This document shows positions 7,196-26,266 of a DNA stretch of 64,000 nucleotides, piece after piece. This DNA comes from an uncultured Rhodospirillales bacterium. Its GTDB lineage: Bacteria; Pseudomonadota; Alphaproteobacteria; Acetobacterales; Acetobacteraceae. The stretch spans positions 1 through 64,000 of the forward strand of contig CAIYSR010000162.1 of assembly GCA_903928895.1 (NCBI GenBank), written 5' to 3'. The notes beneath the pieces are model-generated. The model had not been told where the DNA came from and ran no database searches. It was given only the letters and a program-made list of their open reading frames with translations. Position 1 is the stretch's first letter. Every line of letters starts with the position of its first letter. The translations under genes and the position numbers were made by a program.

Positions 7196-7270
7196 TGGGG
7201 CGTAGCCAAGCGGTAAGGCAGCGGATTTTGATTCCGCCATTCGGAGGTTCGATCCCTCCCGCCCCAGCCA
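7196..7270 (+). tRNA. tRNA-Gln (anticodon TTG)
   Basis: The 7-bp acceptor stem TGGGGCG pairs with CGCCCCA, followed by discriminator G and an encoded CCA. The anticodon arm GCGGA/TCCGC encloses a loop with anticodon TTG, and the T-arm carries GGTTCGATCC. All arms fold cleanly. A decayed serine-recombinase remnant lies about 190 bp downstream in the opposite orientation. Confidence 0.97.
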
Positions 7271-7455
7271 TTTTCTAAATGATTCAATTTAAACAGTAAT
7301 ATCAAACTGTTGCGGCGATTCGATATTGCAATGCTCCCACTGCCATTTCCCAATTTGCTCCCACTACCCTCAGCGCTCCACGGTCGATCCGACAGTTTCC
7401 GACCTAGGCCAACTTTCAAAACTAACATTTCAGACTCTGGTAGCTGAGGAGATCT

Positions 7456-7640
7456 GGGTGATATCCGGTCGCCCGCTTCATCGAACACCAACCCCGTCAG
7501 CCGCCGAGCCAATCCCTACCGACTCTCCGTCCGCGTGACCGTCGCAGTCCGCTGCCGCTTCTGAACGGCCGCGAAGGTGTCACGATCGATGATCGCGGCG
7601 TGATGCCCCGGGGTGAACCTCACCTCATACCGACCGCCAA
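7456..7640 (-). pseudogene. Serine-recombinase remnant (frameshifted, truncated)
   Basis: Reading the minus strand from 7640, one frame gives EVRFTPGHHAAIIDRDTF followed by AAVQ and ends at TAG (7516-7518). The next frame continues at 7512 with RRLTGLVFDEAGDRISP. In large serine recombinases an (H)xAIID..xF..VQ block is followed about 30 residues later by a LL(T/A)GL(V/L)FDxxGxRxxP block, so these look like two adjacent parts of one protein separated by a frameshift. The catalytic N-terminal domain is absent. Upstream the similarity stops at a palindromic repeat that begins at 7651; downstream it fades before tRNA-Gln. The family match is from motif recognition only. Confidence 0.6.
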
Positions 7641-7650
7641 CCCGGCGCGC

Positions 7651-7703
7651 GATACCAACCCACGCAAAGGCTGGAAGACTCAGCCGTTGCGTGGGTTGAT
7701 ATT
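7651..7703. repeat. Palindromic repeat, GATACCAACCC family, copy 1
   Basis: This is an inverted repeat of about 23-nt arms around a 7-nt loop: GATACCAACCCACGCAAAGG plus CTG on the left, answered by CAGCCGTTGCGTGGGTTGAT plus ATT on the right (about 20 of 23 positions pair). The same left arm recurs at 26092. It lies at the broken end of the serine-recombinase remnant and 46 bp beyond the stop of the minus-strand transporter, so it could also act as that gene's terminator, although no T-run follows. Confidence 0.75.
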
Positions 7704-7749
7704 AGAGACAATCTCAAACAGCGACGCTCCGATGCGACTCGCCTGGGAG

Positions 7750-8958
7750 TTAGGACTGTTTGGGGTCCGCCTTGGGTACCGGGCGCAGCAGATCGGCGAT
7801 GACGAGGCCGGTCGAGCCGAGAACCATCAGGGTTGCCATGCCGCGTGGCGTTCCATCCGAGAAGAAGCCGACCACCAGGCCGCCGACGGCGCCGAGAAGG
7901 AACTGGCCGGTGCCCAGCACGGCGGAGGCGCTGCCGGCTTGGTGGGCCTGGTGGGTGAGCGCGCCAACCACGGTGTTCGGGTTGAGGAAGCCCATGCAGC
8001 CCACCGCCACCAGCAGCGGCGCGAGCACAGCGAAGAACGAAGGCGACGGCCAGAACGCGGCCATCGCCAGCAAGGTGGTGGCGCACAGGTGAACGCGCGA
8101 GACAAACCGCAGCACGCGCGACGGGCCGATGCGGCGGACCAGGCGCGCGTTGATCTGCGAGTTCGCGATCAACGTGACCGAGCAGAGTCCGAACAGCAGT
8201 GCGTAACCCGAGGGCGAGAGCCCGAAGCCGCGAATGAACACCGGCGAGGAACCGGAGAGATACGCGAAGAACGAGATCGACGCGCAGCACGCCATCGCCG
8301 CGTGCGACAGGAACCAGCGGTCTCGCAGTATTGCCGCGTAGCGTTGCAGTTGCTGGGCGGGGTGCAGGGCGATACGGTTTTCGGGCGGCAGCGTGTCGGG
8401 CAGGAGGAACCACACCACGGCGCAGCAGATGCAGGCGTAGGCGGCCAGTATCCAGAAAATCCAGCGCCAGGAGCCGAAGATCAGCACGGCGCCACCGATG
8501 CTGGGGGCCAGGATGGGTGCGACGCCGAGCACCAATGTGAGCTGCGACATCATCACGGCCGCTTCGTGCCCGGTCGCGAGGTCGCGCACCATGGCGCGCG
8601 GGATGACCGAGCCTGCGGCGCCGCCGAAGGCCGAGACGGCGCGGAAGATCGCCAGCCAGAAGATGCTGGGCGAGAGGGCCGCGCCGACCGAGGCAATCGC
8701 GTAGATCGCCGTGCCGACCATGATCGGACCGCGTCGGCCGAAGCGGTCCGACAGAGTGCCCTGCGAGATCTGGCCGAGTGCCAGGCCGGCAAAATAGCTC
8801 GCCAGCGTGATCTGGGCGGAGCCGGTGGGCGCTCCGAACGAGGCCTCAATGGCGGAAAAGGCAGGAAGATACATGTCGATCGAGGCGGGCCCGATGGCGG
8901 TGAGGAAGCCCAGCAGCCATGGCAGCCAGGACGGGTAGCGCCGTGCCGCGCCGCTCAT
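7750..8958 (-). CDS. Bcr/CflA-type MFS multidrug exporter
   Basis: This is a 402-residue, very hydrophobic inner-membrane protein with the 12-helix layout of drug:H+ antiporter family 1. Helix 1 carries the characteristic FLTAIGPASIDMYLPAFSAI, and the loop between helices 2 and 3 carries motif A, GTLSDRFGRRGPIMVG. An acidic-aromatic drug-transporter motif around RAMVRDL and a central cytoplasmic loop (PDTLPPENRIAL) also fit Bcr/CflA. The substrate cannot be told from sequence. It stands alone, convergent with the recombinase-remnant region, with about 270 bp of unassigned DNA upstream of its start. Confidence 0.9.
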   Translation of the reverse strand: MSGAARRYPSWLPWLLGFLTAIGPASIDMYLPAFSAIEASFGAPTGSAQITLASYFAGLALGQISQGTLSDRFGRRGPIMVGTAIYAIASVGAALSPSIFWLAIFRAVSAFGGAAGSVIPRAMVRDLATGHEAAVMMSQLTLVLGVAPILAPSIGGAVLIFGSWRWIFWILAAYACICCAVVWFLLPDTLPPENRIALHPAQQLQRYAAILRDRWFLSHAAMACCASISFFAYLSGSSPVFIRGFGLSPSGYALLFGLCSVTLIANSQINARLVRRIGPSRVLRFVSRVHLCATTLLAMAAFWPSPSFFAVLAPLLVAVGCMGFLNPNTVVGALTHQAHQAGSASAVLGTGQFLLGAVGGLVVGFFSDGTPRGMATLMVLGSTGLVIADLLRPVPKADPKQS

Positions 8959-25894: not shown

Positions 25895-25984
25895 GGATGG
25901 GTGGCCGAGTGGTTTAAGGCAGCGGTCTTGAAAACCGCCGTGCGTGTGAGCGCACCGTGGGTTCGAATCCCACCCCATCCGCCA
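25895..25984 (+). tRNA. tRNA-Ser (anticodon TGA)
   Basis: The acceptor stem GGATGGG pairs with CCCATCC, followed by discriminator G and an encoded CCA. The anticodon stem GCGGT/ACCGC encloses loop CTTGAAA with anticodon TGA. A long variable arm (GTGCG...CGCAC) identifies a class II tRNA, and the T-loop is GGTTCGAATCC. It is followed by an A/T-rich stretch and then by palindromic repeats and an IS remnant. Confidence 0.98.
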
Positions 25985-26091
25985 GACTATAACATATTGT
26001 TTTTATTTAATATTCCCCCCCATCTTGCACTCCACTCTAGCTCCTAACAAGAGGGGTTTATTGCGGAGAGGGTGTTGGATGCCGGTCCACT

Positions 26092-26144
26092 GATACCAAC
26101 CCGTGCAAAGGTTGACTCTTCCAGCCTTTGCGCGGGTTGGTATC
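26092..26144. repeat. Palindromic repeat, GATACCAACCC family, copy 2
   Basis: The left arm GATACCAACCCGTGCAAAGG is complementary at 19 of 20 positions to the right arm CCTTTGCGCGGGTTGGTATC, around a 13-nt centre. The arm sequence is nearly the same as in copy 1 at 7651. It sits about 110 bp after tRNA-Ser in a 400-bp stretch without genes. Confidence 0.8.
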
Positions 26145-26205
26145 CGCGCCGGGGTGGCGGGCGCCGGCGTCCGTTGCGCGCTTTCGCGCGACGCGCCAAA
26201 AGAGA

Positions 26206-26266
26206 CTCATACCGGCCGCCGTTGACCCATTCTTCATAGGTCAATCTTGACGGCGGTTGGTATGAG
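26206..26266. repeat. Second palindrome, CTCATACC type
   Basis: The left arm CTCATACCGGCCGCCGTTGA pairs with the right arm TTGACGGCGGTTGGTATGAG at most positions; an inner pair TTGACC/GGTCAA flanks a loop of about 11 nt. It differs from the GATACCAACCC family but shares the xxATACC outer end and a GTTGGTAT inner edge. The 17-nt sequence CTCATACCGACCGCCAA at 7624-7640 resembles its left arm. It lies 127 bp upstream of the readable IS5 remnant. Confidence 0.7.

Follow-up and report, generated by a model that had tools for sequence, protein, structure and literature searches.

The palindrome beside a tRNA-Gln gene in the window (i.e., the whole stretch of 64,000 nucleotides from an uncultured Rhodospirillales bacterium that was analysed) is an internally deleted copy of a dispersed mobile element made of two hairpins. 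Insertion of this element is precise and doubles a 3-bp TNA target; orthologous sites in relatives lack it, and stop codons, read as TRA along the element's strand, are strongly over-represented among its insertion sites. The locus very probably represents a decayed tRNA-Gln island and a non-autonomous two-hairpin mobile element of the Acetobacteraceae that meet at a break.

The palindrome reported at 7651 by the earlier note is real: it spans 7651-7702, has arms of 22 nt that are 91% complementary, and folds with a z score of -6.3, none of 200 shuffles being as good. When window positions 7630-7709 were compared with the same genome by BLAST, about twenty further matching places were found, the longer of which consist of two hairpins and a joining linker. 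The element is laid out as TACC-hairpin 1-GGTA, a conserved GC-rich linker, and TACC-hairpin 2-GGTA, and is mostly 125 bp long. Its stems differ in sequence between copies yet stay paired, while both loops and the linker are nearly invariant. An Rfam search gave no match for the repeat family, which rules out a known Rfam family as its identity.

A covariance model (R1) was built from 39 ungapped 125-bp copies. In these copies, 92.2% of the paired cells form standard pairs, and both partners have changed in 24 of 40 pairs. The covariation score of 0.292 exceeds the shuffled value of 0.127 (0 of 500 as high) and the maximum of 0.124 reached by slid alignments; the linker's own short stem presents zero pairs with both sides changed. 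Part of this covariation may stem from few events, since the copies of any one genome are similar, and arm-to-arm templated correction of the palindromes could also yield paired changes without selection.

Two copies are present in the window. The focal one lies at 7628-7701 on the minus strand, and is recognised both by R1 (7627-7701, E = 2.3e-13) and by its BLAST copies in the same genome; its hairpin 1, at 7653-7701 on the minus strand, is the palindrome of the earlier note, as given by palindrome search, folding and the covariance model. The second copy (26091-26265, plus strand), identified by folding and the covariance model, has both hairpins (26094-26262) with a TGA on each side. R1 matches it at 26094-26193 on the plus strand with E = 6.7e-14, and its second hairpin ends at 26262. 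It lies about 100 bp downstream of a tRNA-Ser gene (25895-25984), such that both window copies are downstream of tRNA genes (tRNA-Gln and tRNA-Ser); a copy elsewhere (L044) also adjoins a tRNA.

Several variants of the element were observed. Some copies in the same genome carry an extra GC-rich hairpin inside the linker (L036, L037, L038, and window 26166-26193). In L068 and L077 the linker is followed by a further hairpin and linker, and these tandem arrays indicate that the hairpin-linker unit can repeat. Solo copies of hairpin 1, of about 49 bp and with TNA-like flanks, occur in L008, L015 and L022. Three copies in the same genome have an odd or missing left half (L010, L013 and L030); two of them (L010 1438-1630 and L013 1434-1626, 88% identical over 193 bp) have a deviating left part in common, about 67 bp ahead of hairpin 1, possibly a composite with another repeat.

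The flanking triplets were compared in two sets of copies. The first set comprises 67 copies (99 linker places minus 32 without both hairpins scored), and 54 of them have equal triplets, against a permutation mean of 42.5 (0 of 100000 permutations as high); equal pairs other than TGA number 6, with 0.54 expected by permutation. The second set comprises 52 new copies (77 model matches in 60 loci, minus 17 weaker or opposite-strand matches and 8 duplicates of the first set), the 60 loci being hand-picked from the top of the match listing and leaning to well-kept copies. Here, 39 of the 52 have equal triplets (permutation mean of 16.9, 0 of 100000), and equal pairs other than TGA number 19, against 5.9 by permutation. 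The matched pairs include TGA, TAA, TCA and TTA. All 93 copies with equal triplets, a set selected for triplet equality and not for triplet bases, have T and A as the outer bases of the triplet, within a weak GnC-TNA-GnC context.

Empty sites were sought by joining the flanks of 12 copies and comparing the resulting queries with 14 genomes. Three of them (L297, L283 and L253) match full-length across the junction at 88-92%, in each case in another species of the same genus, and read base by base these sites hold a single TGA or TAA. Two others (L255 and L264) likewise match across the junction, at 74-75%. The L257 copy interrupts a transposase gene of the IS5 family.

Gene context was determined for 87 copies (119 minus 26 without equal flanks and 6 with short flanks), on gene calls from a simple GC-frame script. 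In 44 copies the triplet serves as the stop codon of a gene on the same strand, and in 4 (each with TYA) as that of a gene on the opposite strand; the others are intergenic (27), inside a called gene (9), at a start (2) or at a gene edge (1). Leaving aside the 9 inside called genes, 48 of 78 insertions (61.5%) are exactly at a stop codon. By comparison, stop codons make up 236 (9%) of the 2552 background TRA sites that lie outside called genes, and the expected share after local-sequence weighting, with the target preference trained on non-stop insertions only, is 15.3%. Applying the gene test in a different order gives 45 of 75 at stops, which is the set used for the strand and odds-ratio tests: stops compared with TNA sites 1-50 nt downstream of stops present an odds ratio of 5.6 (p = 1.5e-8), and the purine of the TNA is on the element strand in 68 of 75 copies (68:7). 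Given this bias persists away from stops (27 of 30), it seems to be a property of the reaction, and not of the genes alone. Part of the enrichment at stop codons could come from natural selection against other insertions. Read by eye, several 3' flanks create a start codon, e.g., that of a hisA-like gene in L131.

A search for the linker pattern in 84,980 named genomes yielded 98 stretches, and the 80 listed are nearly all labelled as Acetobacteraceae, Rhodospirillales or unclassified proteobacteria; Limobrevibacterium gyesilva (Acetobacteraceae) is among the genomes with the element. The covariance model matches 73 of 200 Acetobacteraceae genomes, in 49 of 102 genera, the richest genomes having at least 17 copies. 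In a class-wide draw of 289 genomes, the model under strict filters matched the element's own genome only, and two copies used as queries found no match in a plasmid collection. One intact copy with TGA flanks (L092) is in a metagenome-assembled genome labelled Nevskia sp. As Nevskia is a gammaproteobacterium, this copy is the product of either transfer or a binning error.

These observations would be accounted for by a putative enzyme, supplied in trans, that cuts with a 3-bp stagger and reads the shape of the hairpins together with the conserved sequence of loops and linker. An element landing on a stop codon would do no harm, since the duplicated TGA or TAA keeps the stop of the upstream gene; moreover, the last A of the element plus TGA forms ATGA, which could restore a downstream start. 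In searching for such an enzyme, no Y1 transposase (PF01797) was found in the element's own genome (0 of 1; controls match in 5 of 14), on which ground a RAYT/Y1 origin is rejected. Direct derivation from the PF13340-type IS5 elements of six genomes is likewise discarded, none of the PF13340 loci there matching the element; the IS5-type insertion sequences of G094, which also use TNA, have ends unrelated to it. The open reading frames of L013 and L030, two of the copies with an odd or missing left half, showed no evident transposase when read by eye.

An alternative to which we give considerable weight, while holding it on the whole to be somewhat improbable, is that the element is a conventional MITE, mobilised by a DDE transposase of the IS5 family (IS1031-like) with TNA as its cutting target, and that purifying selection is the only source of the stop bias. 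TNA is the target habit of IS1031, and both the 3-bp TNA duplication and the weak palindromic target (GnC-TNA-GnC) agree with this explanation, as does the presence, in the copy-rich genome G094, of IS5-family insertion sequences with TAA/TTA duplications (L333, L347 and L351). However, these insertion sequences end in GAACGCCTTTCAAAACC and not in TACC hairpins, and another copy-rich genome (G079) is without a PF13340 gene, though its assembly is fragmented. Furthermore, the 68:7 strand bias would not be expected of a symmetric cut, and it is the loops and linker that are conserved in the element, not the stem sequences. A different and more tentative suggestion, about which we are rather doubtful, is that the element is read in a folded, single-stranded form (ssDNA or RNA) and inserted, with duplication of TNA, in one orientation at stop codons, possibly in a manner coupled to transcription or translation termination; recognition would then proceed via the hairpin shape, the two conserved apical loops and the linker.

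The strong covariation and the sense-strand placement directly after stop codons would also suit a functional non-coding RNA or terminator that is placed after genes by selection and is not mobile. Nevertheless, the precise empty sites, the target duplications, the insertion within an IS5-family transposase gene and the lack of an Rfam match make this explanation very unlikely, although some copies have possibly been co-opted for function.

Besides the mobile element, the proposed explanation involves a lost island at the tRNA-Gln locus. The tRNA-Gln gene noted earlier is present (anticodon ttg; 7196-7270, plus strand; ARAGORN and Rfam RF00005), and directly 5' of it lies a gene that is presumably ispE. 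Downstream, at 7454-7624 on the minus strand, is the remnant of a large serine recombinase, comprising the end of the Recombinase domain and the start of what we take to be a zinc ribbon; the recombinase gene is missing on either side of this stretch of about 170 bp. The earlier note placed two blocks of the C-terminal half in different frames of the minus strand. Similarity to the C-terminal half was indeed found there (7456-7640), yet it is read in a single frame, interrupted by an in-frame TAG (7516-7518).

A protein search was proposed in the earlier note. Minus 7456-7640 is similar to the Pfam Recombinase domain (PF07508) at model positions 75-100 or 78-100 of 102, with E = 0.005-0.011, and to the PHROG_95 integrase, with E = 0.0035, but its PF07508 score of 17 bits at best is lower than the gathering cut-off of 21.1. 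Taken alone, this profile evidence is weak. The comparison with related genomes, also proposed there, is more decisive: 6 of 60 match the remnant, own locus included, and the best of the others (G008, from the same family and another genus) has an intact recombinase gene convergent with the same ispE-tRNA-Gln(ttg). The remnant is 69% identical to this homologue over 51 amino acids and 86% over 171 bp of DNA (window 7454-7624), and the homologue (L050) has both a Resolvase domain (PF00239, E = 1.8e-37) and a Recombinase domain (PF07508, E = 1.6e-11). This synteny at the same tRNA-Gln settles the identity of the remnant. Hence, despite the Pfam score below the gathering cut-off, a chance similarity at a locus where no element ever resided is refuted for practical purposes by the synteny, with 86% DNA identity to an intact gene beside the same tRNA-Gln in another genus.

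Among genomes of the window's own genus, G001 and G002 are without the recombinase, their tRNA-Gln being followed immediately by a different gene on the opposite strand, while G003 and G004 have different, unrelated DNA at the locus. Given that gene content after tRNA-Gln differs among the four, the locus is variable, as expected for an integration site. An att duplication of the tRNA end was sought in the window, and only the tRNA itself was matched; this is uninformative, since only a very short stretch is identical between the att sites that result from serine integrases. The results support the earlier proposal of an old integrated element beside the tRNA, i.e., that the remnant marks a lost element and that tRNA-Gln was its target. 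On this view, a large serine recombinase would have inserted a mobile island at the 3' end of tRNA-Gln; after decay of the island, all that would be left of the recombinase gene is about 170 bp containing one nonsense codon. Adjoining the remnant is an MFS transporter gene (7750-8958, minus strand), whose 86%-identical relative in G004 is on a different contig; the window gene may therefore be island cargo.

Relatives of the G008 recombinase, at E = 1e-40 or better, occur in 56 of 200 genomes of the family. A tRNA gene is beside the recombinase in 8 of the 30 loci listed, four with tRNA-Gln (G008 and three more) and four with tRNA-Ser, in every case convergent with the recombinase and on the side of its C-terminus. 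A tree of 30 rows, in which G008 itself sits on a long branch, requires 2 changes of the tRNA-adjacent label carried by 8 rows, against a shuffled mean of 7.2. The G008 homologue shares the Resolvase plus Recombinase domain make-up of large serine recombinases; the window copy, by contrast, is only a fragment and contains a stop. The known targets of serine integrases are mostly protein genes, whereas the present group is tRNA-associated. This is a smaller point, of possible use to collectors of serine integrases.

The repeat is located at the break, as the earlier note had it, with the recombinase similarity stopping at the palindrome. Besides hairpin 1, the focal copy retains some of the linker and, putatively, the last bases of hairpin 2; by eye, it fits a deletion at a shared GGCGG, and its right-hand 15 bases match the right end of the element at 14 of 15. 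These 15 bases could instead be recombinase sequence, given a gapped alignment reaches 7638. The copy is away from the stop codon of any called gene and has no matched duplication, as its left flank is TAA (7702-7704) and its right flank TGA (7625-7627), and the recombinase borders it on the TGA side only. Because the two flanks differ, we infer that the break arose from recombination between two copies, or from insertion followed by deletion; the former would account for the end of the remnant at the element.

Regarding known systems, Chen and Shapiro reportedly described CIR repeats in Caulobacter, Brucella and other alphaproteobacteria in 2003. These are the closest match in print, the likeness being to their published description. 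According to a 2007 review, CIRs (CcrM-associated intergenic repeats) are found in Caulobacter, Brucella and other alphaproteobacteria, and consist of about 110 bp with two long inverted-repeat arms and a linker, TA termini, and GANTC at the terminal loop (PMC2229807). The present element similarly has two inverted-repeat arms joined by a linker, and its consensus, TACC...GGTA, has TA at both termini. Its hairpin-1 loop window contains GANTC in 70 of 119 copies, against 808 of 26516 background windows (3.0%), and GACCCTTCC in its place in 21 of 119. It differs in presenting TNA duplication, empty sites and stop-codon targeting. Furthermore, the same review describes CIRs as strictly intergenic, marks their duplication with "?" and leaves their mobility unresolved (PMC2229807), the intergenic location being restated in another paper (PMC10969869), whereas 9 of 87 copies of the present element are inside script-called genes, one of them (L257) within that of an IS5-family transposase.

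MITEs with TA duplications (ERIC, NEMIS/Correia and RUP) are likewise short, non-coding and dispersed, with terminal inverted ends and a target duplication. Of the features by which MITEs are judged, the present element has the target-site duplication and empty sites, the latter checked base by base for three elements. In the 2007 review, ERIC, NEMIS/Correia and RUP are described as forming a single overall stem, with terminal repeats that are conserved (PMC2229807); the present element has two separate hairpins, with varying stems and kept loops and linker. REP/REPIN sequences with RAYT resemble the element in their paired palindromes, and GTAG REP ends often give a stop codon to flanking ORFs (PMC3733652). 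To our knowledge, no target duplication is expected of Y1 enzymes, whereas the present element duplicates its target, in a genome where no Y1 transposase was found. REPs tagged with CGTC are missing in Acetobacteraceae (PMC3733652).

In the open-licence literature searched, no report of the repeat family or of stop-codon-targeted TNA insertion was found. A strong one-strand preference for stop codons is known for few bacterial mobile elements, and stems that vary in sequence yet keep their pairing point to recognition by shape. With these results, a two-arm, CIR-like repeat gains a demonstrated mode of movement, i.e., a 3-bp TNA duplication with exact empty sites, and the search for its enzyme is now well defined.
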